Assembly: GCF_964275005.1 (NCBI RefSeq)
Contig: NC_092696.1
Coordinates: 22,787,472-22,851,471 of the forward strand
DNA from: Diadema setosum
Taxonomy: Eukaryota; Echinodermata; Echinoidea; Diadematoida; Diadematidae
Direction: 5' to 3'
DNA: 64,000 nucleotides
The notes under the pieces were generated by a model. The model was not told the DNA's origin and ran no database searches. It was given only the letters and a program-made list of their open reading frames with translations. The position numbers were made by a program, and so were the translations under genes. Below, in pieces: positions 1,877-62,574 of the stretch. How positions within the stretch are numbered: the first letter of the stretch is position 1; each line of letters opens with the position of its first letter.

Positions 1877-3982
1877 GTAAGTCAGAGCTCTCACCATTTC
1901 TGTCCCTATCTTGCAATTTGGTTGTTGCTTCCTCTTCTTCCTCCTTATCCATTTTTGTCGAGCCCACCGAAGGTGAGGGGAGACTAAGGGATTGCCTGCG
2001 GCGTCTGTTTGTCTGTCGTCCGTCCGTTGTCCATCCGTCCGTCGTCCGTCCGTCCGTCATCTGTCCGTAACGCTACAAAAACTTCAATAACTCTTTACTC
2101 TGGGCTTCAATTGCAATCAAACTTCGAGGGAAAAGGGGTCATACAAAGTGTCACATTTTACCATATGTGAAGGTCACCTCAAGGTCAAAGCTCACAGGCA
2201 GGGGTCAATGACCTTTAGGGCCCAATGTTAAGTTTTTGTGGCGCGTTTCTATTATGGGTCATAACTTTTGATCCATAACTCCATTTGTGACCAAACTTGG
2301 ATGGTAGATGTCCCTTGGGGAGTGGATGGTCACCACAACGTCAATGGTCACAAGCATGGGTCAACAAACTTTTAGAGCCCAATGTTAAGTTTTTATGGTG
2401 CTTTACTATTATGGGTCATAACTTTTGATCCATAGGTCCGTTTGTGACTGAACTTGGATGGTAGATGTCCCTTGGGGAGTGGATGGTCACCACAAGTTCA
2501 AAGGTCATAGGCAGGGGTCAACAAACTTTAAGGGCCCAATGTCAAGTTTTTATGGCACGTTTCTTTTTTGCCATAAATTTTTACCCTGTTATATCTCTTT
2601 TTATCTGTTATATCTTTTTTTGATCTGTTATATCCCATTCGCGCATAATTTCTTGTACGCGAATGGGCAAGACACATTATGGCACTCTCCTCGTTCCTCC
2701 ATTTCCCCTATCTTAAAATTCATTTTCTTACAGTTATGGAAAAACAAGTCCCCCCCCCCCCCCCAAAAAAAAAAAAAAAAGAAAGTATGCTCACTTGGAT
2801 ATGTGCTGGTTTCAAAGTTTTCAAAGATGTTTTCTGCTGGTACCCCAAATTTGTTTTTTTCTCTTCATTCTATGATCCCATCTTATGATCTATTTCCATA
2901 TTCCCAATGCTGATGTTTGCTTTTCTTTTTTGTTTTTTTTTTATTCAAGTATTTGCACATGGGAAAAGAAAACTTCATAAATTGGAGAAGATTAATTCTA
3001 GGTAACGGTAATGAGAACCAATTATGTAAGATTTTGGTAAGTCATTGTGGCCAATAGAGAGAGCCAAATGTTTTACACTGAACTAGAGCACTTGGACGGT
3101 GCAAACCTCTGCCAAGGCCATAGAGTCACTGATGCCTGGCCCTCAGAACTGTTCACACATTCTTTTGGGGAAAAAACAAACAAAACTAAATCTGAGTCAT
3201 ATTCCAAATCACCCCCCCCCCCCAAAAAAAAAAAAAAAAAAAAATTAGTTTGTGCTTGTTCCTTGTATCACAACCTACACTGATAATTTCATCAAAATCT
3301 GTTCATAACTACCGGTAGAAATGCAACCAACTACCCCCAGTGAAATGTTACTTCTTAGCAGAGGTAAATAGGAGAAAAACTCAATTTGATTTGTGAATGG
3401 AATGTCAGACACCAATGTGGTTCATCATCTCTCAGAGATAAATCAGAGCAGAGCAGAAGTAAATATGAGAAAGACCCCATTTGATTTGTGAATGGAATGT
3501 CAGAAACCAATGTTGTTCATTATCTCTCTATGAATCCCAGACATTGTCAGAAGTTTGGCCAACAGTCGTGGGTGTTGGTGGCCATCATTGTCTCAGAGGT
3601 GCTCATCTCTGTCAAGTTCCAGTACGATCTCATCACCATGCCTTTCCCCCGCCACATCGCCATCCTGTGGATCGTGGGCCTTGTCAGCCTCGTCCTCTGG
3701 ACCATCTGGCGGTTCTGCATCTGGTCGCCGTCGACAACATCGCGCTGGCGGCGCACCAACAGCCAGTCCAGCAACAGCTCCACGGAGGAGAGGCTGGAGG
3801 GAGAGAATGTTCGGCGCACTGTCAAGAGCACTCAGATCATCAGCTCCGTCACGCAGCGCAAGAGCGCGTCGTCCCGCATGGTCGGGAGTAAGGATGTTGA
3901 CCCTGCCCCAGCGAATGATGTTGGTAAGCAGGGGAGCCCATATCCGACACGCTCCAGAAGACGGCAGATGAACGGAAAGTGA
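1731..3982 (+). CDS. PTDSS2: Phosphatidylserine synthase 2-like, 3' end of gene (two terminal coding exons)
   Basis: Seen: two exons, 1731-1876 and 3541-3982, join in frame (CC|A gives Pro) across a GT-AG intron and end at TGA 3980-3982. The product starts WLVSELNTFYLKTCLWIPPP and continues through VREVYQYVEDP, KFGQQSWVLVAI and HIAILWIVG to TIWRF. These blocks match the C-terminal membrane part of PTDSS2 (recalled human ELNTFYLKFVLW, MREIYDFMDDP, LGPQAWLVAAI, TWTVWRF) better than PTDSS1. Family knowledge: PTDSS2 is a multi-pass enzyme of the ER and mitochondria-associated membranes that swaps ethanolamine of phosphatidylethanolamine for serine. Two or three hydrophobic segments are visible, followed by a polar Ser/Arg-rich tail of about 90 residues that I cannot align. 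The catalytic N-terminal part lies left of the window. Confidence 0.88.
1945..2690. repeat. Dispersed repeat with 157-base tandem units, gtccgtcc tract and 3' hairpin
   Basis: It lies in the PTDSS2 intron. A gtccgtcc-rich tract (about 2015-2065) is followed by about three tandem copies of a 157-base unit (block cccaatgttaag at 2221, 2378 and 2534; atgggtcataac at 2254 and 2411). A perfect 10-base stem CCCATTCGCG/CGCGAATGGG (2634-2643 and 2658-2667) stands at the right side. Such gtccgtcc-plus-minisatellite repeats are multicopy in many marine invertebrates. The 3' hairpin is Helitron-like, but Helitron ends were not proven. Confidence 0.55.
3541..3982 (+). CDS. PTDSS2: PTDSS2 terminal coding exon
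   Basis: The acceptor is atcccag at 3534-3540. The reading frame runs to TGA at 3980-3982. It encodes two hydrophobic segments (WVLVAIIVSEVLISV and IAILWIVGLVSLVLWTIW) and then a basic, Ser-rich cytosolic tail ending RRRQMNGK. Local GC is clearly higher than in the surrounding intron. The 3' UTR follows; its end is not clear. Confidence 0.88.
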
Positions 3983-6110
3983 AATCAAAATGAAATCATT
4001 TGAAGCAAGAAGGATGAGTTACTTTTAAAGCCCATTTTGTCACCTAATGAGTTCTCTATCTTCAGTACCACACCTAAGGTAATGCGAACAGCCGCATTCA
4101 CACTGACAAAAGATCACAAAGTTTAAGCTTGCAAAGTCTTCGTGATCTCTTGTCATTTGGTCACACTGGCAGCCAAACTTCTTGATCTTTGGATCAAGAA
4201 GTTAGGGTCACTAGTGTGTGTGTGTGTGTGTATGAGAAAGAAGAAAGAGTATGCCGTCCTGACAGCTGGTGATTGAGGTGTAACAATACACTCTTGTTCA
4301 TCGCAATGACAGTGCGCTTTGGAGGAACAACCTGCAAACAGGTGGTGGACTGGTCATATGACAAGTTTCAGTTTCTAGTGTTCACACTGGTAAAAGATCG
4401 AAAAGTTTAGCAGGGTTAGGGGAAATTTCCCTAGTTTGAGTGGGAAGTTTCGCGAGAAGTTCTGCAAGAAGTTTGTTGTCACACTGGCAAAAGATTGAGA
4501 TCATATAGATTGCAATCTTAAACATCTCAATCTCTTGCTAGTGCCGCTAATGCGTCATCTGTCACATTTCTTTCTGAAGCAAAATGTTTTGTAAAAATGA
4601 TTTTGTGTTTCAATTTCGTGACATGGGTGGCCTAATTGATGAATCACTTTGCAATTATTGTAAGTTCCAATGTTTGCAGTTTCCATTGCTCACAGATGCT
4701 TGGTTGTTGTTTAGCTGTTGCCATGGTTGCAATTCGTTGCAAAGCGCTTTATAAACAAGGACCACAATGTGAGAGCGCGCCTTCAGTGACGATAAATTCA
4801 CAGTACCACGAAATATGTGTGTACTCTATGCCAAACATCTGATATACACATGGTGCACTTATGATGTGTTTTTATAATGCGAAACAAACCTGTGGCATGT
4901 TTTACAGAGTGGAAGTTTTGCTGAGGCAGATGAAGGAACAGACATGGGATGGAGCAAAAGTTGCCACTTTGTGTGTGACCAGACATGCAGCAGTATTAAT
5001 TTAAGTGACTTTTAAGTTGTCTTTTTGTATGTCCTAGTTGTCATGCCACTGTGGCAGGTTTTGAATTGTTTTTATACGATGAAAGAAAAGCAGTTTAGTC
5101 TTCATTTGTGTGTAGAAAAATAGTCTTTGGAATTATGGATGATTAATGCTGCCTTTGAATTATGAGTTTCAAGTGGAATTGCAGATTCACGCAACGAATC
5201 GGGGTATGAATTTCCACCTGGCATTCCAAAGCATTTATTGTGCTCTGAAATAACTTTAAGGAGGAATTTCATTTTGCTCCAACCCTGAAACTATCTTGAA
5301 CCTGGCCCCGTTTGAAAGTTCTTGACACAATATGACAACTCTTTTAAGTGCCACAGATGAATGAATTGCTATTTGTTGTTTGGGTTATTTTGGTGCAAGC
5401 AGATTATTTAATTCACACATTTAATGTCTATGCTGAATCATGTCTGTCTCTATGTGGGGATAAATACCATTGTGCTGGGAACATTTAATCCTTATTTATG
5501 TTGAGTTTTCTTGTATATTTTGATTGATGCCAAAGGTGATAATGGAAATTGTTAAGAGTTGGTATCGCATTGATTTCTCTGGACAATACTCTGGATGTTA
5601 GTAATGTCACTAGGAAAGTAAGATTCAGAAATAATCATTGACTTTTTAAATTTGCAATATTATGAACAGTTGGATGGGTGACTAACTAAATGCCATGTTT
5701 AATACTGCTGAATGGATTGTGTTCTCTCTTCAAACAAAACAAAAAAATGCAAATCTTTTTTATACAGTGCCTGATGTGGTGTGTGTATCTCATAGAAAGT
5801 TGAGTTCTTTCAAATCAGCATTGCTTTAATTTGCATTGTACAGCCATTGGTAATTTGATCACAAAATGTTCTTTTACCTTGTGTTCCATGTTGGCCTTCT
5901 GATTACAGTTCACATACATGGAGGATAGTCAGGTGACATTTTAAGTCAAAAGTGTAAATATTCACCCATTGCTGTAGAAAGTGGCATTTAATATTGGGTG
6001 TCTCCACAGCACTGATACCTCCCGATAGAAATTGCAAAGCCCCTTTACAGAGACTTCAAATGTGCAAAATGTCTTACACCTGTTACTCGAAACATAGGAT
6101 GTAATCTAGA
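3983..6110 (+). other. Probable PTDSS2 3' UTR and downstream DNA
   Basis: There is no coding region. Around 4095-4570 the motif tcacactg.caaaagat recurs in both orientations (for example 4110, 4384 and 4482), along with agaagttt blocks, suggesting a decayed foldback element. A GT run sits near 4214-4231. No polyadenylation site stands out. Confidence 0.35.
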
Positions 6111-6118
6111 TAAGGGCT

Positions 6119-6660
6119 TTTTACACTTGTAAATTTTTGCTTAGTCCCGTACCAACGGTGGGGCTAAGGGGGGGGGGGGGGGCCTTAACCCCACCGTTGG
6201 TACGGGACTATCCTTAGCCCACTTTCTGTTTACACTCGTTTTTGCCAAAGTGGGCTAGCCCCACTGATAATCCCGTACTATCTGGCCCTGCAAAATAGCA
6301 GGGTTAGCACCGCAATTGCGGTGCCAAGCAAGTGAGTGTAAACAGAACGAAAAAATAATTCGGGGCTAAGCGAAGGAGACGAAGTCCGACCCCCACTGAC
6401 CAATCAGAAACGAGGTAATCAAGTACTGCCGGTGCGTGCGTGTACGTGTACAGTGCACAGCGTAATCATGAATATTCATGTGGTTTGGAAAGTCCGGGGC
6501 TAAGAAATACGAGTGTAAAAAGGTCAGTTTTTCTCCTTAGCCCCGGACAAGAGATAGTACGGGACTAATTGGCCAGTGTAAAAAGCTGAAAAAATTGGTA
6601 CGGGACTAACGATAGTCCTGGGTCAGAGAAAGTCCGGGGTTCAGAAACACAAGTGTAAAA
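6119..6660. mobile_element. 542-base MITE with TIR TTTTACACTTGT and 6-base TSD
   Basis: Perfect 12-base inverted ends TTTTACACTTGT (6119-6130) and ACAAGTGTAAAA (6649-6660) are flanked by the direct repeat agggct (6113-6118 and 6661-6666). Inside is a strong secondary inverted repeat at about 6144-6209 (tagtcccgtaccaacggtgg against its complement) around a G run. Several tagtcccgtac and agtccgggg motifs recur. No protein is encoded. Confidence 0.8.
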
Positions 6661-6666
6661 AGGGCT

Positions 6667-7376
6667 ACAGTGATACAGCATCCTCAAACCAACATACCAG
6701 GTTTCATTCAGTAGTAAGACTATTAAAGTAAAGCCTGAAGCAGATATCGATCTCAACATGTATACTTAGTGACATTTCCACAGTTTCATGAAGGCACGCA
6801 AAGCTTGTACGTGTACATACACAAAATGAATACCCAAGAAAGCTGAGCAATTCTATGTCAGCTGTTTTTAAACCAGTATTTATCCATTGATGAATATGAT
6901 AAGAGGATTGTGTAATAGTTGCGAACTTTTTTCTTCTAGTTATTGTCTTTATTCTCAAATCAGGCCAAAGATAATTGTGAAAGCATTTGTTGATATCACA
7001 ATTAGAGGCCTCCCCACCAAACTAAACACTTGCCAGTATGCACCTACACCAGTAGAGAGTTTCGAAAAGTTGATTACTTTTGTATGTAATGTAATGGCAC
7101 GTGTGTATTGTAATATGAAAACATTTGCCGGAATTATGGCTGTGATGTGTTGTATTTGTTTTTGTGTTTGTTTTATTTGCACTCTTCATAAAGGTATTAA
7201 ATCTCTTGGCCAGTTGCTTTACTGATGATGATACAGACACAGTATAAGTTACATTCTGGCGGATGGTCCATGAGGGTTGTTACGAGTATCGCAGCAAGAT
7301 GCCAAAATTTTTGTGTGACATCCTAAATAGTGTGCTGCATTCAAGACCCTATGCCAAAAATTGATGCTGTGCTGAA

Positions 7377-13175: not shown

Positions 13176-14546
13176 CATCACAAGTGTGGTGAATACATGT
13201 ACCGTATTGTATAACTGGTCAGAGACTGGTACACTGTAGATCATATTTGCTGTGATCATACTATATGGAGTCACTTGTCTGCTGAGGTTGTATATCATAG
13301 CTTGATGCAAGTATGTATGCTTTACAAGAGCACTTTCAATCCCATGTCCACGAAATACAATATGTATGTATTGTTTGTAGAAAAATGCTCATGGATATAA
13401 ATGATAGCCACGTTAGTTGATTGTAAGCGAAACACTATCTAAAACCAAATTTGTGTGGAAAATGTGTATTTTGAAGCAGGCACATGTAAGATGAAATAGA
13501 AAAAAAGAGCAGATATCATCATTTGAAACTCTAAGAAAATGATAAGTTCAATGTCATATATACCTGTAGTGTTGCTTCTCGCTAAAGAAGACAGTCAAAC
13601 GCTGATTTCCATGCATCAGGTTGTGTGTATGTGGGGGTGACTCTAGTTGATACAGATGCACTACAGTCAAAGCTATAAATGCTCACATTACGGTAGTTAG
13701 GTTGCGGGAGGAGAAATTTGGTGGATTTCAAAGGGCCATTTAACATTCGTAGTTGTGTAAGCAGCAAGGAATAGGAACCCAATCTCGTACCGATCATTGA
13801 CCTTTCTGGAAAATATTGAGAGAAGATTTGGAAACCCTTGTTATAATGTGCCACATTGATCTCTTGGGTAAATGTTCAACACACCATCTGTATACCTGCA
13901 CATATTGGAAGAGTGATTTGTTATCAGCCCATATCGTTATTCACGCTTGCTTGTCCCCTACCTACTGATATCATCAGGTAAAGGTGGCATTTGTGGAAAT
14001 AGATGTTCTTGGATGACTGTTGTAAGAGTCTGAGCATCTTGTATTGTGCTAGCATGGAATAGTAAATTTAGCATATATCCATATGCACATACCTGGTACA
14101 TTTTAATACCCATTGCGAAAGAACCGATGTTGCACTTGTCAGAGTAATAGTATACTAAGGACTTGTCTTGAAATTACTATTACTATACATCTGAATGATT
14201 AGCAACCAAAATCATATGACTGGGCTTTATTACAGTATAAAGAGGCATAGATATGCAAGTAGGTTTAGCACAATGTACAATGTATGAACAATAATTGCAC
14301 TATATGCAGCACTGGACTGTTGTCATTTTAGTCAAATTTGTGCATTATTGCAAGCATGTCATACAAACTGTGTGTGAGGTGTGTAACTTTAAGAATTCAT
14401 TAAATCACAGGTGCAAATATGTTTCTTTTTACAATATCTGCAGTGAGATTTGTGCTTGTCCTGTGTTTCAGTCGTACATTATATACCATGCACATTGCTT
14501 GTTACAAGTATAGATACTCCCTCTATGTGCAGCAGTGCACAATCAC

Positions 14547-14820: not shown

Positions 14821-15396
14821 AGTGTGAATTAGTGTGTATTTTCTGTACCTGGTCGTATCATCCCAATACTTGCCCAACTCTTGAAAGTATAATCTCTGAT
14901 GGTAGTGCAAAAAGCATGTTGCACTACCATCCCTTAGCTGAGGTTGATAGCATGTTTTTATATTCAAATGTATCACTTTAGGATGAGATGGGATATCTGC
15001 CCTCCACCACAAAATTTTGCTAAAATCTGAGTGTAATATCTCATGGAGAGCTAAGCCCTAGCTTTTATATTGATTCTGGTATTCACTATCTACACTTAAA
15101 GCAATCTCAGCCACACATCGTCTTCCCCATAGATATAAATCCATCTTTGTCAACACACAATAAACACCTCCAATTCTTTTATCCCAATCACAACATGCAA
15201 TTCCTCTCAAACATGCCCAATCACCTGAATATCATGGTTATGAACATGAGACAATCTTTGACACTAGTGGGGCAGCTTAGCAAACCTATTGTGCATTTTG
15301 TGATACAAGCACCAAATTTGGCACAAATGTACATTAACATATTGCAAACATTTTCAGATATTGGGCCACTTGGAATTCTCTCTTTATGTCCGCCAT

Positions 15397-16080
15397 ATTG
15401 GATTTCAAAATGGCCGCCATTTGAAATCTACATTTGCGACTATCTCTGGGTCTAATGGTGCTATTGACTCGATTCTGGTGTCTAAATGTATGTTTTGGGG
15501 GGCAAGGAATCCAATGGTAACAATCTGCATTGCGTGTTTTCACCAATGGGCCGCCATATTGGATTTCAAAATGGCCGCCATTTGAAATCTACATTTGCGA
15601 TTATCTCTGGGTCTATGCTGCTATTGACTCGATTCTGGTGTCTAAATGTATGTTTTGGGGGGCAAGGAATCCAATGGTAACAATCTGCATTGCATATTTT
15701 CACCAATGGGCCGCCATGTTGGATTTCAAAATGGCCGCCATTTGAAATCTACATTTGCGATTATCTCTGGGTCTAATGCTGCTATTGACTCGATTCTGGT
15801 GTCTAAATGTCTGTTTTGTTTTTTTTTTGGGGGGGGTGGGGCAAGGAATCAAATGGTAATGATTTGCATTTCGTATTTTCACCAATGGGCCGCCATATTG
15901 GATTTTAAAATGGCCGCCATTTGACATCTACATTTGCAATTATCTCTGGGTCTAATGCTGCTATTGACTCGATCCTGGTGTCGAAATGTATGTTTTAGGG
16001 GGCAAGGAATCCAATGGTAACAATCTGCATTGCGTATTGTCACCAATGGGCCGTCATGTTGGATTTCAAAATGGCTGCTA
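15397..16080 (+). repeat. Left tandem array, about 160-base units
   Basis: The block tggccgccat recurs at 15411, 15572, 15732 and 15911, with a diverged copy at 16072. Spacing is 160-161 bases; one unit is longer because of a T/G-rich insert. Each unit contains gccgccat[ag]ttgg and a 50-base stretch from ctacatttgcgattatctct to ggtgtctaaatgta. Confidence 0.92.
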
Positions 16081-16259
16081 CTCGATCTACATTTGTCGTT
16101 ATCTTAGGATCTAATGACTGATTTTGGTGGTGGTGGTGGCGGTAGTTGTAGTGGTAGCTGTAGTGGCGGTGATAATAACAGAAGTATTACATTGTGTCAT
16201 TCCAGGTTCATTGTGATGTATGCATGCCTATAGACTGACAGTGCTGGTTTTTTGTTTTT

Positions 16260-18260
16260 GTCAAAGAGGTTCAGATTAGCTCATGCTGAGCGAACTTCAC
16301 CATCAACATCACCGCAACTCACCACAACTGACTGGAAATTATGCCTCATATGTCAAGAAGACAAAATGGCGACACTGATCAAACCTGATCAATCAAAGAG
16401 GAAAGACATTGGTAGTGGGTAAAGTTCACTCGCATAGAACTTGATCAAATTCAATGAACTTTGAGAGCTTCCAGGATCATTCACTTGGAAAGACTCAATG
16501 ATGGTCATGGCATCGAAGCTGCGAAGGTTGAACACGGTGCACAATATCACCAGACGTGCAGGCTCCAGTACAACAACACCAAACTACAGAGGGCACAAAA
16601 GTGAGCACTCAAGAAAGAAGGGCAGAGCGATGAGGAACAATCTTTATGCAAACGCACCAGGGTACATTCATGTTCATCGAGTACAGAGAAGGTCCAAGAA
16701 ACGTGTTTCTACTGTGGATAACCTACTGGGGCTAACAGTCTTTGGAAAGCTGCAACATTGTCTCGGTGCTGCACTTGACAAAGCCTGCGAGCTGGACAGT
16801 GATAGTGATGCAGTCCATCTTGCCCGTGCTGCACACATTGTTCGCCATCACATGTTTGGAGAAGCCAAGCCCTTCACAGGATTCCCTGAAGGATGTCAAG
16901 AAGAATCTGTGCCACCGTTGCTGCTTGCCCTAGTCAGCATGATCCTAGAGGAACCCAGCATCAAGGACCAGACCGCAGACACTAACCCTGCAGCACTTAC
17001 CGCAGCCCAGATACTGAAGTTCAACAGCGTCAAACACATGTGAACACGTGGCACCACATCATCCCCCTGTGTCAAGCACAGTGTTGCACAGGAGACCCCA
17101 CTTCCAACATACATAGGGATGATGTTTCATGCTCATACACGCAAGAAGGAATTGGACGACAGACTGTCACACGTTGGCCTGAGCATCTCTCTCTCTCGTC
17201 ATCTTCGGCTGCATTTAATGCCAGCCAACAGCCACCAGATTCTCGAGTCATCTGCCCCATGTCGCTGCTTCCGCTCTTCCTGGAAAGTGCCCACATTGTG
17301 GCCATGATCCGGCATTCAATGGATGTGAAAAATGCTGTAGAACAACTGAATCCTGGACAGACACCAGTGGTCACCTTTGATCAGCTACTGTTTGCTTTGG
17401 CCAGCAGATACAGTGGAAGTGGCCAGAGAGTTATGGTGAAGACCACATAGTGGTGATATTTGGTGGTCTCCACATAGAGATGGCGGCACTGAAAACACTG
17501 GGGGACTGACTGCAAGGGAGTGATTGGGTGCAAGCACTTGTGCAAACTGAGATTACGATCGTGACAGCAGGGACAGCAGACTCATTCCTGCGAGCATTTC
17601 ATGTCTTGCGCACAAGAAGAGCACATCAAGTGACTGCAACAGCACTGTACATCCTGCAACACCATGCCTACAACCACTACTGTCTGGGAGAAACCAGGGA
17701 CGCACAGGACCTTCATGCGTTTGAAGACCGGTGTCGCCAGAGACGAGACAACATCACCCAGTTTCGCTACTGGGCAACTGTGCTAGAACTAGAACTATTG
17801 GTTCTAGTGTATGTGCGTTCTCTCAGGCAGGGATCGTTGATGATGTACCTCGATGCTCTGACAGAGCTGGTCCCACCTGTGCTAGGTGGATACCAGTGCA
17901 CCTAAAGGACATGGCAAAACTCACTACCAAACACCCAGATGTAGCCAGGAAATTCAGTGAAGGCCACTTCACAGTTCAGAAAACACAGAGGGTGTTTTCT
18001 TCCATTCCGATTGACCAGGCACATGAGCAGAATAATGCCTGCATCAAAGGAGACGGTGGCGCAGTTGGGCTCACTGACAGCCCTAGTGCCCTTCGTCGCT
18101 GGATGGTTGCGGAACCGGAGGTTGCTCGTGTGATCGAAGAATTCCAGGATGGGAACCAATACTGTAGACCGCAAACAGCAGACAAACAAGACAAACAAGT
18201 TTCTGGGACCGTCTCTGTACTCAATGAACGTGAATGTGCCCTGGCGCATTTCCATAAAGA
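16260..18260 (+). pseudogene. Transposase-like gene, DQAHEQNN family, interrupted
   Basis: Seen in order: a CLICQEDK Cys-pair block (about 16345-16375), an ..IEA..EHGAQYHQTCRLQYNNTK-like zinc-binding block (about 16510-16590), TFDQLLFALA near 17375, an EMAALKTLGD block near 17480, AGTADSFLRAFHVLRTRRAH near 17570-17630, and SSIPIDQAHEQNN...GDGGAVGL..SPSALRRWM near 18000-18105. I recall the same block order in many unnamed predicted proteins of cnidarians, molluscs and other marine animals. A transposase with an RNase H-like core (candidate acidic residues in FDQ, GD and HEQ) is inferred. The frame is broken in several places. The first about 440 bases of coding sequence also exist inverted in the right arm. 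Confidence 0.68.
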
Positions 18261-18680
18261 TTGTTCCTCATCGCTCTGCCCTTCTTTCTTGAGTGCTCTC
18301 TTTTGGTGTTGTTGTACTGTAGCCTGCACGTCTGGTGATATTGTGCACCGTGTGCAACCATCGCAGCTTCAATGCCATGACCATCATCGAGTCTTTCCAA
18401 CTGAAATGATCTTGCGAAGCTCTCAAAGTTCACTGAATTTGATCAAGTTCTATGCGAGTGAACTGTACCCACTACCAATGTCTTTCCTCTCTGATTGGTC
18501 AGGTTTGGTGAGTGTCTCCATCTTGTCTTCTTGACATATGAGGCACAACCTGCAGTCAGTTGTGGTGAGGTGCGGTGATGTTGACGGTGAAGTTCGCTCA
18601 GCATGAGCTAGTGTGAACCTCTTGGACATGGTGGAACTGTCTTGAATTAAAACCAGCACCGTCAGTCTACAGGCATGCAT
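18197..18680 (-). pseudogene. Second, inverted copy of the 5' coding end of the transposase-like gene
   Basis: On the minus strand, LAHAERTSPSTSP, CLICQEDK, ERLDDGHGIEAAMVAHGAQ and YHQTCRLQYNNTK repeat the N-terminal blocks seen on the plus strand at 16260-16670. The copy stops at the inner limit of the terminal inverted repeat, so it has no downstream coding sequence of its own. Confidence 0.78.
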
Positions 18681-18849
18681 GCATCACGATGAACCTGGAA
18701 TGACACAATGTAACATTTCTGGCATCATCACTGCCACTACAGCTACCACTACACCTACAAGTACTACTACCACCACCACCACCACCAGAATCAAGTCATT
18801 AGATCCAAAGATAACGACAAATGTAGATCGGGAAGCGGCCATGTATAAA

Positions 18850-19545
18850 AGCAGCCATTTTGAAATCCAATATGGCGGCCCATTTGGTGAAAATACGTAA
18901 TATAAATTGTTACCATTGGATTCCTTGCCCCCCAAAACATACATTTAGACACCAGAATCGAGTCAATAGCAGCATTAGACCCAGAGATAATCGCAAATGT
19001 AGATTTCAAATGGCGGCCATTTTGAAATCCAATATGGCGGGCCCATTGGTGAAACACGCAATGCAGATTGTTACCATTGGATTCCTTACCCCCCCCCAAA
19101 AAAAAGAAAACAACAACAAAAAACGTACATTTAGACACCAGAATCGAGTCAATAGCAGCATTAGACCCAGAGATAATCGCAAATGTAGATTTCAAATGGC
19201 GGCCATTTTGAAATCCAACATGGCGGCCCATTGGTGAAAATACGCAATGCAGATTGTTACCATTGGATTCCTTGCCCCCCAAAACATACATTTAGACACC
19301 AGAATCGAGTCAATAGCAGCATTAGACCCAGAGATAATCGCAAATGTAGATTTCAAATGGCGGCCATTTTGAAATCCAACATGGCGGCCCATTGGTGAAA
19401 ATACGCAATGCAGATTGTTACCATTGGATTCCTTGCCCCCCAAAAACATACATTTAGACACCAGAATCGAGTCAAAAGCAGCATTAGACACAGAGATAAT
19501 CGCAAATGTAAATTTCAAATGGCGGCCATTTTGAAATCCAATATG
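18850..19545 (-). repeat. Right tandem array, about 160-base units
   Basis: Mirror image of the left array: ccaatatggcgg or ccaacatggcgg blocks near 18867, 19028, 19215, 19377 and 19537. One unit carries an A/C-rich insert, matching the odd unit on the left. Confidence 0.92.
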
Positions 19546-20280
19546 GCGGACATAAAGACAGAATTTCGAGTGGCCCAATATCAAAAAATGTTTGCAACAT
19601 GTTAGTGTACATGTGTGCCAAATTTGGTGCTTGTATCACAAAATGCACAATTCCTTTGAATTTTCGAGCTAAACCGCCCCACTACACCACTTATCGTCAA
19701 TATTGTCACCATCGGTGGTCATTTATTTTGCGCAACTTTTCCATGTGGATTCTTTACAGAGTTAGTGGGTCTTACCCATCACAGGGGATATCATACGGGT
19801 TTACTTCAAAGTGATCAGTAACAAAAGCTGATTTGTGTCTGAAATTTCAAATCCACAGGAAATTATCTCTCACAAAATACTTATGTACACAATTTACAAC
19901 CCTCCTCAACTTCTGAGGTCACGACTTTCATTCCAATGAGAAACACTTTGAGACTGTACACATCAATTACTTCCCTCATGCACAGTATTAAGTTATATTG
20001 CATAAAGGGGGGCAATAATAGAAATGGGAGGAGCGTAGAGGGTATAGATGGGCATTATGGGTGGGGTAAACACTGGATGTTCATCACTAAAAATCAGCAG
20101 TAACAAGGCATCGTGGTATCCTTCACTGACCACTTGCAATTGAATCCTGTCAGTGGGAAACAAAATGACACTAATGAGGAAGAGGGAGAAAGAAGTAAGT
20201 ATGCCTTCAGAGCTACATGATTCCATTTGATTTAATTTTGACTTGATTGGATGTATTGGTGTCTGTGTCATTTTCATACA

Positions 20281-23641: not shown

Positions 23642-48012
<24,371 letters not shown>

Positions 48013-52182: not shown

Positions 52183-54526
52183 ATTAGGTGATCCGAGTAT
52201 CCTCTCGGATCACCTTCTGTATCTGTACGGATTCTTTGGTTCTTCTTCTTCTTCTTCTTTATTTCTCCTCAAAAGTTGTGTTTCGATTAGCTCAGAAAGT
52301 GTTCCTCCTATCAATTTCAAAATTATACCATACATGTATCATGTCCCAAAGTCGACAAATTTTGTAAAATCATAGTGATCAGTCAGCGGTGACGTCACTA
52401 TGACGTCATTATATGAAAACACATTTTCATGCATATCTCATTAATGGAAAGGAATTTTTCAATGAAATTTACGTCACGTATATTTCAAGTCAAGCGCATT
52501 CTACTCATATTATCAAAATTCACATTTATTATTAAAAAGTGCGAGTACGCGCGCGTTGAAATATTTGTATGCTCAAATCGAGCTCAAATTTTTTTTGCAC
52601 ACGTTTCAGACCATTTGGAGCATTTTTTGAAAAATTGAAAAAATTGGACGGACGCGTACGCGCGCGCGCATATACGCACGCACAGCTCATATGCAATAGA
52701 AATTTCCCGTTTTTTCACTTTGATCGGATACCTGAAAGGTCAAGGAATATTTCTACCAAGTTTCAAGTCAATCCGACTCAATATGACGTCATACGGGCCC
52801 GTCAAAGTTGAAATTCCGCGCGCGCGTCAATGGCGATATACAGTGCAACTATGCCAAAAAACCACCAATTTTAAATCCGATTTTACTCGTCAGGATGGAC
52901 GGTGACCCCCCGTTTTCTTTACATATTCTGAAAGCTGATGAGTTGTACATGCCATTTCATGGGTTGGTGAAGCTGAAAAAATGATGAAAAGATATCAAAT
53001 TTCTTAATAAAGTAAAAAAAGTAAATTTTCAAAATGACGTCATAAAAATTCAAGTTCACTCGAGCGTATTTCATTTATCCTTTGCCGATTTTCACACAAA
53101 TTTCAGTATGTTGTAGCTTATTAAATGCTCTTTCATTAACATAATAATAACAGCATTTTGATTGGGTGACGGCATCACCTCGTAAAAATGGATTAAAAGT
53201 AATTTTGTCAAATTTGGCCAGTTTACGTGTTATCTCTATGGGAGTGCAGTTTTTCTGGAAATGAAAATTGACATGACTATCTTTCTCGAGCACTATCTCA
53301 CTTATGCTTCGGTGAACTTCTCCCAACTTTTAATATGTTGTAGCTGAGACTTTGGGCTATCGTAGTTGTGCCCTTCATTTTTTCATACGACGTCGGCATC
53401 ATGTCAAAAAAATTGGTTGAAATTAAAGCTTATCTTCGATGTATTGAGATATTTCTTCCTTTCTGCAACTTTCTTTGCAATAACTCGAGAACGACAGCCC
53501 CTTTCGCCCCCATATTTTGCCCATGTTTAGTTCATGTTACGTACATTTTTTCATAAAATAACAACTACTTGATCGGACACCATGTTGGGTATGTAAATTA
53601 GGGTCAAAGGTCATAAATATTTCATCCTGTATCTTAGTAAATACATGTCCTATCTTTCCCATATTCTGCACACGTAAAGACCATGTTACAAGGATCATTT
53701 CACAAAATAGCCACTTTTTGCTCAGATGCCATCTTGTCTGTGCAAAGTAGGGTCAAAGGTCATATGTACTTTTTTTCTGTATCTTCGTTATGACGTGTTA
53801 TCTCTATGGGAGGGAATTTTTCTAGATGTAAAAGTTGACATGATTGTCTTAATCGGGCACTAGCTCACTTACCCTTCGGTGAATTTCTCCCAGATTTTAA
53901 TATGTTGTAGCTGAGACCTTGCGCTATCAGAAATGTGCCTTTTGTTTTTTCATACGATGTCTGGATCATGCTAAAAAAAACTTGGTTGAAATTAAAGCTT
54001 ATCTTCGATGTATTGAGATATTTCTTCCTTTCTGCAACTTTCTTTGCAATAACTCAAGAAAAACAGCCTCTATCACCCCCATATTTTGCACATGTTTAGT
54101 TCATGTCACGTACATTATTTCATAAAATAACAACTACTTGATCGGACACCATCTTGGGTATGTAAATTAGGGTCAAAGGTCATAAATGTTTCGTCCTGTA
54201 TCTTGGTGAATACTTGTCCTATCTTTCCAATATTTTGCACACGCAAAGACCATTTTACAAGAATCATTTCACAAAAAACTACTTTTTGCTCAGATGCCAT
54301 CTTTGGTGTGCAAAATGGGGTCAAAGGTCAAATATACATTATTCTGTATCTTCGTTAGTGCATACGGAATTCGGTACCAAAGATGGCAGGTCTGACTCCC
54401 TTTTCTAACTGAAACTCCAAACATCACATGGCCAATGTCCCCTCAACACAGATGAAACCTGTATGGTCATGCCTATTGGGATCAGGACTCAAATCATTGA
54501 TTTCCCAATAGATCGGATCACCTAAT
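52183..54526. mobile_element. 2.3 kb element, TIR ATTAGGTGATCCGA, with internal 560-base duplication
   Basis: The left end attaggtgatccga (52183-52196) mirrors tcggatcacctaat (54513-54526). Immediately inside the left end a hairpin ggtgatccgag/ctcggatcacc forms. The second half holds two tandem copies, offset 559 bases, sharing ttggttgaaattaaagctta (53413 and 53972), with gttatctctatgggagg-like blocks and gggtcaaaggtcata lines in both. No protein was recognised. Confidence 0.75.
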
Positions 54527-54771
54527 TTGTCAGTGTTGACAAATTCCGAGTCTAGTTATTTATTGATATTATAATGTGCTATATGTTTTTCATTGGACTC
54601 CGATACCCAGAGTTTGGGTTGTGAGTAAATAAACTTTCAAACTTTCTTTCCGTGCGCGGAAGGCGGTGGGGGAGAGGGGGGGGGGGGGGGAGGGTCGGCT
54701 GAGACACCGCAGTAATGGCGCTGCCCATGCCAAAATACACATAGCGCGTCACAGAATCGGTCTATATAGTA

Positions 54772-55345
54772 GGGTACCTAAGGGGGGGTCACCGTGCACC
54801 CCCCCCCAGGACTCCTCGAAACTTACATTTTCAGGATCCTCATGACATACCAAAACATAATCAAGATGTTAACAGGAACGAAAAGTGGCTGTTCAAGGTG
54901 AAATTTAATGTATTCTATTGTTTTTCATAATTTCTTATGTATTTCTTTGTTTTTCAACTTTTTCAACTTTTGTTTTTTCTTTGTTTTTCTATTGAAAATT
55001 GTCACTGACCACTTTTCTACCATAATTAGCACAAAACTAATCAATGAAAGTGATTAAATGTAAAAATAATCAGGTTTTCATGACTTTCATGACAGAGCAC
55101 CTGTTTTCCATAGGAAATGTACACAAAAGCACAAAATTGTGCCCGTTTTGGGACGACATTCTGTTACAAAAATGGGCGTGACTTCGCACAAGTATGCGGG
55201 GAAGTTGCAAATTTGGTCTCAAAAGTTGTGCGAGACTTGAACAAACAAAGTCAAGAAGCCTTGCGACAGATTTATAGCGCGAAACTTCGGGGGGGGGGGG
55301 GGTGGGGGGGCTTGCAAATCCCCCCCCCCCCCCCCCGTCCTTAAA
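54772..55345 (-). mobile_element. First copy of the gggtac..taaggggg element (one arm of a large inverted repeat)
   Basis: It starts gggtacctaaggggggg, has tcaccgtgcaccccccc and aggactcctcgaaactta, and then runs as the inverted copy of 55860-56349. It ends in G/C homopolymer tracts. Confidence 0.78.
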
Positions 55346-55531
55346 GGGTTAACGTTGCATGAAAAAAAAAATCAATTTTCACATAATCTCATTTTTAAAG
55401 AGGTGGTATGCTTTACTAAGTATTTATGCATATATATCTTTCTTTTAGATAAACCGAAAGTCACTTAACTTCGTGGGTGCGTTCGACATAAATGTATTTC
55501 TTCTGTTTCCACGACAGCAGGGTGTGCTATA

Positions 55532-55742
55532 TACTGTACGAGCTGAAATTTTCGCGTACAGATATTTTCGCGAATTGCTACTAGGACATTTTCACGTGTT
55601 GTTAATTTCGCGGTTGCGAGGTCTAACTGTACTTATCTATTCGCACGTTGTTATTTTCGCGTGTTGTTATTTTCGCGATTCAAAGGTGATTCGCGAAATT
55701 CGCGAAAATAAAACCACCGCGAAAATTTCAGCTCGTACAGTA
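55532..55742. mobile_element. gcgaaaat-rich MITE, second copy
   Basis: Inverted-repeat ends tactgtacgagctgaaattt, matching 42801-43015 over its whole length in the other orientation. It lies in the spacer of the large inverted repeat. Confidence 0.88.
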
Positions 55743-55797
55743 TATATGTATGTACCTGTACGTAATTATATGTGCTTACATGTAGGGCCTACATAGT

Positions 55798-56349
55798 AGG
55801 GTACGTAAGGGGGGGGGGGGTCACCGTGCACCCCCCTCCCCCAGGACTCCTCGAAACTTACTTGACTTTGTTTTGTTCAAGTCTCACGCAACTTTCGAGA
55901 CCAAATTTGCAACTTCCCCGCATACTTGTGCGAAGTCACGCCCATTTTTGTAACAGAATGTCGTCCCAAAACGGGCACAATTTTGTGCTTTTGTGTACAT
56001 TTCCTATGGAAAACAGGTGCTCTGTCATGAAAGTCATGAAAACCTGATTATTTTTACAATTAATCACTTTCGTTGATTAGTTTTGTGCTAATTATGGTAG
56101 AAAAGTGGTCAGTGACAATTTCCAATAGAAAAACAAAGAAAAAACAAAAGTTGAAAAAGTTGAAAAACAAAGAAATACATAAGAAATCATGAAAAACAAT
56201 AGAATACATTAAATTTCACCTTGAACAGCCACTTTTCGTTCCTGTTAACATCTTGATTATGTTTTGGTATGTCATGAGGATCCTGAAAATGTAAGTTTCG
56301 AGGAGTCCGGGGGGGGGGGGGGTGCACGGTGACCCCCCCTTATGTACCC
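55798..56349 (+). mobile_element. Second copy of the gggtac..taaggggg element with both TIRs
   Basis: Left gggtacgtaagggggg..., right ...ccccccttatgtaccc. Both ends continue inward with aggactcctcgaaactta and its mirror, a TIR of about 60 bases. The body is the reverse complement of 54800-55257. Confidence 0.82.
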
Positions 56350-57240
56350 AACTAACAGGACGCTGCTCCTGGCCCAATTCCAAGCAAAAAGACTGACTTC
56401 GACTGCGCCAAGACTACGACGATACCCAGCAACACTAACATTAGTAACAAGTTAGAACAGAGTGGTCCAGGGCCTTCGTGAAAGTTTTTACTGGAATCGT
56501 TCTCGACGATAAATGACAATCGACGGAAGAACGTGATCTATTACTAGTGAGTCATATTATACTGGGCGATGCCATTACATAGCTATTTTGGCCATTTAAG
56601 GAAAAAAAAAAAGTGGAGGAGTAGGAGGTAATCTCAGTCCCACATAATGTGATAGAAGTTAGCAAAACATGCTGTGCCCGAATGCAATGTCCAATGCCTA
56701 TGCCCCGCTATGGATGACTGAGTGAGTGAGTGCGAAGGAGAAGGAGGAGGAGAAGAAGGAGGAGAAGGGGAATAATTTATTGGATAATAAATCAATGGAA
56801 ACATTGTTTCCATTGTTTTACAGTCAGTGGGTCCACCTTCCTTCTGTGAATTCTGGTGTAAAATTTAATATTAACCGTTACGTATTATTATTTGGCTGCA
56901 TGGCGCCGGTCGACATGGTCAGCTCAGCCTCGGGACAGTGCCAGTGTGGCTCAGGTACTGGTAGCAGTGCAGTGTACAGTGGTACATAATGCCATTAATG
57001 GTGCTTTAAAAACATAATACCCACGGAAACATAGTCATAACTGGCATAAGGACTCTAGTACTCTACTATATGCAATGCTCGTGTGAGTGAAAAACAGGTG
57101 CTCTCCCATTACTGGTGCAGTGGTGGATTTTAATATGCTGCGCATCATTTACACACGTCTTGTTGGATGTAGGGAACTAATCTTAATCCCAAGCAGGGAC
57201 AGGTTAGAGTTGCACAGCCCACTTCTACCTCCTGCCTGGG
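56350..57240. other. Intergenic DNA, no recognised gene
   Basis: It contains a GGA/GAA-rich tract near 56729-56770 and short reading frames without family resemblance. A run gacatggtcagctcagcc near 56914 has raised GC but no supporting protein. Confidence 0.45.
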
Positions 57241-58730: not shown

Positions 58731-59068
58731 TGGCTAGTAACTGATCAGTGGGAATGCTGGGGGATGATTGTTCCAATCCTTGTGGGATTCATTTAAGAGT
58801 ACATTATATATCTATTGTGTGAAAATTATTTGCTTCATAGTGGTCTCATTATTCAAGTAATGTACAGTTTAATGCACCATCACTGTACAGGCATGCTAAC
58901 CTGGAAACATTAAACTGCACATTACTTGAATATGAGACCATTCTGAAGCAAATAATTTTCAAACAACAATAATAATGTACTCTTTAATGAATCTCACATG
59001 GATTGGAACAATCATCCCCCAGCATTCCCACTGATTCCCACTGATCAGGCACTAGCCATCCCCTTTAA
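58731..59068. mobile_element. TTAA-flanked foldback MITE, TIR AAGGGGATGGCTAGT (copy 1)
   Basis: Left ttaaaggggatggctagt, right actagccatcccctttaa. The arms pair over almost the whole length (gatgattgttccaatcc and its mirror). It is upstream of the PGAP4-like gene. Confidence 0.9.
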
Positions 59069-59248: not shown

Positions 59249-59810
59249 GTCCACTGAAAAAGAACGTCATGGATGGAGAGCTATCTCTACTCTGTTGATG
59301 ACTACTGGTCATAGAGAAAAGCCATCATCATGATCTTTGGTGGTCCTCCAGCTATCTCCCCCTCTTTGATTGTTCGGATATTTTGAGATTTCATTGACAT
59401 TGGACCTGCAGCCCTCGATGAATCTGAAACCTCATCTCTAGTTGCCATGGCAACATATATAAGTATTTTGCTTTAGTTTTCTGCACGAAAAGTTGCTTGA
59501 AGTGGTGACTTTATCAGCAAGACATTCTGGGAGATACTGGAAGTTGCAACCAATTGTGTTTACAAGAAGACTCTGCCATCAGTTTGGGAGCCTCTGATGA
59601 CAACTTGCGCGCATTAACTCTCATTGCTGTTTTGGGTCACATGTGCGCTACCAAGTGATAAATGATAGTTGTAAATGAATATTTATAGAATGAAATGTTA
59701 GCATAAAGTGGCATAAAGTGCATTCTAAACCACATGTAGGGAGTGAGAAAAGTGGCACCTTGAATATGTTCTTATTCGATTGTAGCACTTGAGGGTTTGG
59801 GTGTGAAAAA
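59249..59810 (+). other. Probable 5' UTR exon part of the PGAP4-like gene
   Basis: A strong acceptor (about 17 pyrimidines, then cag at 59246-59248) precedes 59249, and no intron signal is obvious before the ATG at 59811. This suggests a spliced leader exon upstream. Inferred; several short upstream ATGs are present. Confidence 0.45.
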
Positions 59811-61253
59811 ATGCAGTGTATAAAAATGGCTGCTCACCTGTGCCATTGTCTTGTATGTAAACCAGTCTTATGGTGCAAGCAGCTAATCATGTCTTGTTTT
59901 TGCAACCAAGCATGCAGAAGATTTTTGCTGAAAGTCATGGCTATTTATTCCCTCACTTTTTTCCTTGTTCTGCCTTTCTTCTTTCGTAGTCTCCCACTGA
60001 CAAAATACTACAAATTATACCATGATCCCCTGAAAACCCTTGATGAGGCAAGAAGAATGAATCAAGAACAAGCTGACCTAGCTGAGAACCAGCTGTTCCA
60101 GATGTCCAAATCAGAAACAAAAATGCTGTATGAAAAGTCGAGAGAAAACGCAAAGCTAAACCTTGTCATTGGGATTATAACTATGTCTAGGCATGAGGGG
60201 AGTGGAGTGAGACGAAAAGATCCCAGGTATTTAACCCAGGTCATGTTAGCCTTACATTTAGCCCTTCAGCAATCAGGGGGACTACAAGACACAGCCATGT
60301 TCATATGCAACACCAATCGTGTGCCTGAAGACCACAAGGAAGCAATAAATCTGTCAGAATTCTTTCCCATTCTGAATAAGCCCGTCAAACGTGAGATAAA
60401 TCCGTATGAGCGAGAGAAGCTAGATTACCAGTTCTGTCTTTCTGAAGCATCAAAGTTTGATGCCAGGTACGTTTTATTGCTGCAAGATGATGCCCTTCCC
60501 CATCGTGACTTTTATTCCGTTTTGATGTACATCCTAAGAAATAGGCTTGAAAGCCATATATCTCATGGAGATCAGCACGTAAGCAGCAATGATTGGCTGT
60601 GGTTAAAGCTTAACTTTCCCAACTCTCTTGCCAGGTATGAACGCAATTATTACTTTGCCACAGAATGGGTGTCCATCAGCCTTGTTATTACAGGTGTTGG
60701 CATGCTCCTTCTCTCAATTTACAGGGAGGTTAAAGGTCATCTCACCAACACAACTCTCAATGGAGGATCTCAGTCAACACTAGATCATTCAAGTTACTAT
60801 GACATCTTTCTTGCCAGCTTTGTGTATATTCTCCTGGTAGTTTGGTTGCTAGGGAAACCATACATTAGCTTAGCCAGGATGGCATCCCCTTCCCTCTACA
60901 CACTCGGGCCGGGTACCTCATGCTGCTTGCCAGCCGTTCTGTTCCCTCAATCCCAGGTTCCAGGCATACTAGAGTACCTCCAGGCCACAAAGCTTTCCAC
61001 TGACAATCCCTTAGACTTTGCACTGGATGATTACCGCCAGAAGAGGATGCTGCGACAGTACCTGCTCAGTCCAAACATTTTTACACACATAGGCTTCATA
61101 TCAACACTACATATGCTTCCCAGCACTAAGGAAGCTGAAAATTATGTGTTTGCCATGAAAATTCTCAAATGTGGCTTGATGCAGTCCTCTAAAGGCCACC
61201 GCACACTACACGATCAGACTGGTCTTAAAGTCTTAAGCCAAGCTGGGTCTTAA
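59811..61253 (+). CDS. PGAP4: PGAP4 (TMEM246)-like GPI-anchor GalNAc transferase
   Basis: A single open frame of 480 residues (human PGAP4 about 403, also with one coding exon). Seen: a membrane segment at about 39-58 (FLLKVMAIYSLTFFLVLPF), VIGIITMSR (119-127), the acidic motif LLLQDDALPHRDF (222-234) where the family has EDDAVPE, two membrane segments at about 286-304 and 333-349, then LSPSLY-like ASPSLYTLGPGTSCCLPAVL (358-377) and PNIFTHIGFISTL (421-433), matching human PNLVKHIGLFSSL. Family knowledge: a Golgi glycosyltransferase with a GT-A fold split by tandem membrane helices, adding GalNAc to the GPI first mannose. The ATG gives an N-tail of about 38 residues, so a later Met (27 or 43) is possible. 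Residues 461-480 and the stop lie in an inserted MITE. Confidence 0.9.
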   Translation: MQCIKMAAHLCHCLVCKPVLWCKQLIMSCFCNQACRRFLLKVMAIYSLTFFLVLPFFFRSLPLTKYYKLYHDPLKTLDEARRMNQEQADLAENQLFQMSKSETKMLYEKSRENAKLNLVIGIITMSRHEGSGVRRKDPRYLTQVMLALHLALQQSGGLQDTAMFICNTNRVPEDHKEAINLSEFFPILNKPVKREINPYEREKLDYQFCLSEASKFDARYVLLLQDDALPHRDFYSVLMYILRNRLESHISHGDQHVSSNDWLWLKLNFPNSLARYERNYYFATEWVSISLVITGVGMLLLSIYREVKGHLTNTTLNGGSQSTLDHSSYYDIFLASFVYILLVVWLLGKPYISLARMASPSLYTLGPGTSCCLPAVLFPQSQVPGILEYLQATKLSTDNPLDFALDDYRQKRMLRQYLLSPNIFTHIGFISTLHMLPSTKEAENYVFAMKILKCGLMQSSKGHRTLHDQTGLKVLSQAGS

Positions 61254-62215: not shown

Positions 62216-62574
62216 TTAAAGGGGAAGGCTAGTAACTGATCAGTGGGAATCAGTGGAAATGCTGGGAGATGATTGTTCCAATCCTTATGGGATTCATTCA
62301 AGAGTTCATTGTATATCTATTGTTGTGTGAAAATGATTTGCTTCAGAACGGTCACATATTCAAGTAATGTGCAGATTAATGCTCTGTCACTGACCAGGGA
62401 CGCTAACCTGGAAGCATTAAACTGCACATTACTTGAATATGAGATCATTCTGAAGCAAATCATTTTCATGCAACAATACAATGAACTCTTGAATGAATCC
62501 CATAAGGATTGGAACAATCATCTCCCAGCATTTCCACTGATTCCCACTGATCAGTTACTAGCCTTCCCCTTTAA
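62216..62574. mobile_element. TTAA-flanked foldback MITE, TIR AAGGGGAAGGCTAGT (copy 2)
   Basis: Same family as 58731-59068: left ttaaaggggaaggctagt, right actagccttcccctttaa. The arms are very similar to each other (caagagttcattgtatatct region mirrored), suggesting a young copy. Confidence 0.9.

Follow-up and report, generated by a model that had tools for sequence, protein, structure and literature searches.

A truncated Academ-like transposon family of Diadema setosum, probably founded by an inverted duplication of one element end and the start of its transposase-like gene

The DNA analysed here is a 64,000-nucleotide stretch of the genome of the sea urchin Diadema setosum (RefSeq assembly GCF_964275005.1, contig NC_092696.1, positions 22,787,472 to 22,851,471 of the forward strand), hereafter called the window. 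Positions 15265-19684 of the window hold a 4,420-bp element with long inverted arms and a direct CAC on either side. We conclude that this element is very probably a decayed copy of a non-autonomous family that derives from a longer Academ-like element, and that in the founder of this family the left end, together with the start of the transposase-like gene, was copied in inverted orientation into the place of the right end. The case is built on the anatomy of the window element, on the comparison of 29 loci of the family and on two full-length relatives in the same genome.

Self-BLAST of the window paired 15288-16708 with 19651-18193 in inverted orientation (89.1% identity including gaps, 1,768 bits); the top minus-strand self-match among 20 first-order Markov sequences of the same composition scored 45 bits. 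Aligned end to end, the left arm (15265-16715, plus strand) and its inverted match, the right arm (18186-19684, minus strand), give 1,430 columns with 97 substitutions (6.8%) and 18 gap events, and the second arm is therefore no assembly duplicate. These two alignments and the translations bear out the 1.45-kb inverted arms, each with the 5' end of the gene, that a first-pass annotation had described from the letters alone. Self-alignment and translation give the same order in each arm, from the outside in: the terminus TAGTGGGGC, a tandem array with a unit of ~161 bp, a short microsatellite rich in GT and, innermost, the gene's 5' part. The left array, found by tandem-repeat detection, covers 15390-16116 (plus strand, 4.4 copies), and the right array of ~161-186-bp units covers 18934-19549 on the minus strand (overlapping rows 18934-19280 and 19119-19549). 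Neither these arrays nor the absence of the gene's 3' part figured in the earlier description. The CAC target site duplications, read from the flanks of the element, occupy 15262-15264 and 19685-19687. We could fix the ends at TAGTGGGGC because 3-bp duplications of many different sequences flank other copies, 21 of them perfectly; a TA target duplication was rejected on the same evidence. All six exact matches to AANATGGCGGC in the window fall inside the two arrays (15550-15899 and 18869-19388; 0.05 expected from shuffles), and they are not independent because the arrays repeat one unit. We take AANATGGCGGC to be a YY1-like core.

Translation placed the left copy of the gene's 5' part at 16264-16715 (plus strand), with stops and a frame change, and the inverted second copy at 18186-18629 (minus strand). 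Both arms encode a C-x2-C block (CLICQEDK) and an HGAQYHQTC block, and only the left copy extends into the single-copy centre, exactly as first described. The ATG is kept in the right-arm fragment (18629-18627, minus strand) and lost from the left copy, the one that adjoins the gene body. The centre (16716-18185, plus strand), delimited by translation and copy comparison, contains an internally deleted, frame-broken gene body whose last recognisable blocks are DQAHEQNN and EEFQDG; the gene's own 3' portion is absent. The transposase-like protein pieces ETPLPTYIG, TAGTADSFLRA and DQAHEQNN appear in shifting frames with stops, and the gene of the window element is disrupted by stops and frame changes. 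Neither the window pieces nor the relatives described below matched any family above cut-off in sequence searches of Pfam, NCBIfam and PDB. Two matches below cut-off, zf-AD on the right-arm Cys block (E = 0.043) and Phage_holin_7_1 on the joined gene body (E = 0.18), were set aside.

The host-genome search covered a 912.7-Mb assembly of 102 contigs and returned at least 193 matches, among them near-full copies on other contigs at 96-98% identity and a second group near 92%. We fetched 28 further loci with flanks (L009-L036), which together with the window make a set of 29. This collection, which the first-pass annotation had recommended for a comparison of ends, includes 26 loci with both termini. 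Perfect 3-bp target duplications of many different sequences flank 22 of these 26 (all except L015, L025, L031 and L035), confirming that the element is a transposon. Sequence of the gene's 5' part occurs in both orientations at 27 of the 29 loci, and in the order 5' part (plus), body, 5' part (minus) at 25. L033 and L035 have both 5' copies and no body, L030 is devoid of the inverted copy and L036 of either one; in L029, L031 and L035 no more than a short piece of the inverted copy, 52-104 bp, is present. An insertion of ~4.7 kb of foreign sequence lies within the left arm of L012, an otherwise 98%-identical copy. Searches for relatives outside the host genome found none in viral contigs (by protein and by terminal 20-mer), genome contigs, phages or plasmids, collections with few or no animal genomes and hence little informative.

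With these loci we can address the possibility that the inverted 5' fragment is a one-off rearrangement or an assembly artefact of the window copy alone, other copies having terminal inverted repeats that end outside the gene. The broken gene and the occurrence of the same stops in both window arms hinted at a late duplication before other copies were known. Within the family, however, 27 of 29 loci carry the 5' part both ways, and the layout is therefore neither a one-off nor an assembly error. The perfect target duplications that 22 of the 26 two-ended copies have of their own and the 6.8% substitutions between the window arms point the same way. Together with the junction survey and the tree described next, this locus survey refutes the one-off reading, to which we assign practically no probability.

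The junction between gene body and inverted arm was surveyed at the 25 loci with a DQAHEQNN anchor, window included. The identical short-form join is found at 21 of them, counting L014 with its body end deleted. L029 and L032 have ~60 bp more of the inverted gene part at the junction; in both, the gene frame reads to ...DTRHH and then enters the inverted copy. L030 retains a remnant of the longer form, and the junction of L034 is interrupted by another insertion. This insert (oriented ~3455-7096) contains two minus-strand open frames of 610 and 603 amino acids, one with reverse transcriptase/integrase-like text, and by eye resembles a long terminal repeat (Gypsy-like) retrotransposon. In a FastTree tree of the 0.44-kb gene part from 27 left and 24 right copies, 20 of the right copies form one clade (support 0.98) that holds no left copy, and the left copies fall into parallel subgroups. 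The tree and the shared junction imply that the inverted duplication is older than the bursts that produced the copies seen. Since the same junction occurs in copies with their own target duplications at different sites, the extended form must have been mobile. A single inverted duplication is thus the apparent founding event of the family, which would then have moved as a unit. The first-pass suggestion that the layout may reflect end-duplication is upheld by the 27 loci, the shared junction and the tree. We had also considered a late origin of the inverted arm inside an already dead copy, a reading that rested on two stops common to the window arms. It was ruled out by L032, which has those stops in neither arm, and by the tree, in which the duplication is basal to the whole family.

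The structure from which the founder arose can be approached through full-length relatives. A protein search of the host genome with the 85-amino-acid DQAHEQNN block gave 54 matches, and some of these relatives have long open frames. L037 and L041 together delimit an element of 9,406 bp that has an AAA target duplication and terminal repeats ~200 bp long, 76% identical to each other; in joined coordinates its coding run extends from 7304 to ~11855 and its terminal repeats lie at 4198-4398 and 13412-13603. L038 and L040 delimit a 10,090-bp element with 183-bp terminal repeats at 84% identity and a CAA target duplication. The terminal repeats of both elements finish kilobases outside the gene, and neither element contains an inverted gene copy. 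The layout in the window is therefore a derived, truncated form, and the proposal that it marks an unnamed superfamily is not supported by the same observation. The gene of the window family halts at the point equivalent to RHH (L037 joined 10125), ~1.7 kb before the end of the relative's coding sequence, and the inverted left end stands where the rest of the gene would be. Over the 5' part, the L037 gene and the window family share ~62% nucleotide identity. Subterminal repeats of ~160 bp are found mainly at the 3' end in L037 and at both ends in the window family, so the left end may itself be an earlier rebuild from the right end. Five more copies of the L038 family (97-99% identity over the part searched) share its right terminus exactly or to within 3 bp, and one partial copy was also listed. 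Open frames of 888 to 1,339 amino acids are present in this ~10-kb family at L038 and at four of the five other copies, and the family looks recently active.

Several observations weigh against the founding of the family by one inverted duplication in an Academ-like ancestor. Both full-length relatives are only distantly related to it (amino acid identities of 76% and 54% over the 85-amino-acid block), and the true parent was not seen among the relatives in the host genome. An intact transposase of the exact window family was not found either, the longest open piece of the family gene among the fetched loci being 293 amino acids. The copies were chosen by resemblance to the window element, and the genome match lists are lower bounds. 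Between the window arms, the proportion of nonsynonymous differences (pN, 0.056) is lower than that of synonymous differences (pS, 0.142; Fisher p = 0.03), which is unexpected if all divergence was neutral. We leave this signal without explanation and regard it as weak, because the ratios in some alternative frames of this stretch are comparable (minus strand offset 1: 0.138/0.063). It could reflect constraint after duplication, as would suit an ancestral functional design, that is, an autonomous element with the 5' end of its transposase gene in both long arms, perhaps for convergent transcription. The presence of the layout in nearly all family copies examined would also agree with such a design. 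Nevertheless, in both relatives that combine complete ends with long open frames the terminal repeats are short and lie outside the gene, the family gene stops at the inverted-arm junction short of the relative's coding end, and no fetched copy has an open family gene. We consider an ancestral design very unlikely.

The arms themselves supply the remaining contrary points. Four of the 24 right arms (L025, L032, L033 and L034) fall outside the right-arm clade, and in L032 (support 0.77) and L033 (0.53) the left copy pairs with the right, with weak support. These pairs and the two junction forms are what one might expect if terminal repeats recombine easily and several copies gained the inverted 5' part independently. 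The short junction nevertheless lies exactly where the long one does and differs from it in being ~60 bp shorter, and one clade unites 20 of 24 right arms, which makes such recurrent formation a highly improbable account. The four exceptions reflect either a subsequent exchange between arms or a tree whose base is poorly resolved. Furthermore, both window arms have the same in-frame TAG, which is present in 6 of the 24 right arms, all belonging to the window's own subgroup or to L014. This distribution requires local conversion from arm to arm; exchange between arms has been local.

Founding by a single inverted duplication can be cast as the following sequence. The ancestor would have been an Academ-like element of ~9-10 kb whose short terminal repeats lay outside the gene. 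In the founder, as the shared junction and the tree show, the inverted left end and the first ~0.5 kb of the gene took the place of the right end and of the transposase gene's 3' part. The right end may have suffered a break whose repair used the left end as template and continued into the gene, as has been proposed for the Galileo transposon. The terminus and the repeat array were kept at both ends, so that cut-and-paste transposition of the truncated element remained possible, as the copies with 3-bp target duplications show. Its transposase was presumably provided by full-length relatives with similar ends and 3-bp duplications; we infer such mobilisation in trans from the lack of an open family gene among the fetched copies. 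The founder would then have given rise to several subfamilies, in which the arms were inherited jointly and mostly diverged, with local exchange between them.

As to classification, the protein type and the 3-bp target duplications fit Academ (AcademX-like), of which the window family is a candidate member. A check of L037 and L038 for a DDD/E domain against Pfam, in libraries that include no Academ profile, returned only DUF6589, below cut-off (E = 0.006 and 0.073, respectively). The relatives L037-L039 have a long C-terminal region that is lost from the window-family copies. No nuclease domain was matched in L037-L039 by the Pfam, NCBIfam and PDB sequence searches. Judged by its motifs, this region looks XPG-like or nuclease-like; the profile searches confirmed neither a nuclease nor a DDD/E domain. 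The 1.45-kb arms with ~161-bp arrays amount to a foldback-like structure, which is a structural class and not a superfamily. The window family also displays a terminal inverted repeat extension of the Galileo type, with the 5' part of the gene inverted in 27 of 29 family loci and in neither L037 nor L038. It does not have the convergent two-gene layout of MuDR-like elements, for what might pass as its second "gene" merely repeats, in truncated form, the start of the first. The inverted-arm layout does not define a superfamily. Text searches of a limited library of papers found no occurrence of the strings DQAHEQ, AHEQNN or HEQNNA, and no paper that links non-autonomous elements with inverted duplication, gap repair and related terms.

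The window contains further repeats and frames. Another inverted-repeat element of ~1.6 kb, with ~0.5-kb arms at 97% identity, lies at 54767-56354 and partly matches 42801-43015. A near-palindromic repeat resembling a miniature inverted-repeat transposable element is present in two copies (58744-59068 and 62216-62574) that start with TTAAAGGGG, and units of ~565 bp form a tandem pair, 88% identical, at 53225-54357. An open frame of 486 amino acids at 59793-61253 (plus strand) has no Pfam match; we presume a resemblance to PGAP4/TMEM246.

Among described systems, AcademX elements are characterised by 3- or 4-bp target duplications (PMC10045372), in line with the perfect 3-bp duplications at 22 of 26 two-ended loci. 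A further likeness is the large protein of the full-length relatives with its long C-terminal region; the window family itself is without that region. Tetris, a foldback-type element, is reported to have terminal repeats of up to 1,735 bp composed of an outer domain, tandem repeats and an inner domain (PMC4079207). It resembles the window family in its long terminal repeats built with tandem repeats, and differs in the account given by its lack of apparent central coding capacity and its 8-10-bp target duplications, where the window family has a transposase-like body and 3 bp.

Galileo, a member of the P superfamily, offers a closer comparison. Its extended (2RT) copies in Drosophila mojavensis are described as TIR1-F1-F1-TIR2, and the authors propose that one end was copied into the other (PMC3573991). 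Long terminal repeats with internal tandem repeats, and internal sequence from outside these repeats that is inverted before the other end, are common to both, to judge from that description. Apart from the superfamily, the difference is that Galileo is described as recruiting the spacer F1 or F2, whereas the window family took in the 5' coding part of its transposase gene. Galileo copies with the longest terminal repeats reportedly have no transposase open reading frame, whereas the window family retains a truncated gene body; and in the host genome here one such form founded a family. What is new is that an extension form took in the 5' end of a transposase gene and became the source of a multi-copy family. 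Terminal repeats extended over this end can thus make a stable, transposition-competent form that founds subfamilies, and not merely a dead by-product. The family is also dated and present in many copies, and its left and right arms can be traced as separate lineages, so that arm-to-arm conversion becomes measurable.

Mu killer of the maize Mutator system is the closest apparent anatomical parallel to the window family. Both of its ends are reported to come from the mudrA-adjacent end, each with part of mudrA, and this single locus silences MuDR (PMC3440606). Like the window family, it has two ends of one origin, each with the start of the transposase gene in inverted duplication, and an internal deletion. 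Transcription from the two ends of a window-family copy, which the first-pass annotation proposed to be convergent, might give double-stranded RNA over the centre. A read-through transcript of such a copy could pair over ~1.4 kb, as in any such inverted repeat. It is conceivable, though we think it very unlikely, that the family acts as a mobile natural counterpart of Mu killer, in which ~1.4-kb hairpins would yield small RNAs that repress the mobilising transposase, the family thereby limiting or having outlived its own autonomous parent. At ~62% nucleotide identity such a hairpin would be a poor guide against an L037-type relative; the target would be a closer parent, which was not found. 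The copies at hand nonetheless offer, within one animal genome, a naturally occurring set of inverted duplications of a transposase gene on which ideas about double-stranded RNA can be explored. The parallel has a clear boundary: Mu killer, as reported, is one silencing locus, whereas the window family is dispersed and bears target duplications.

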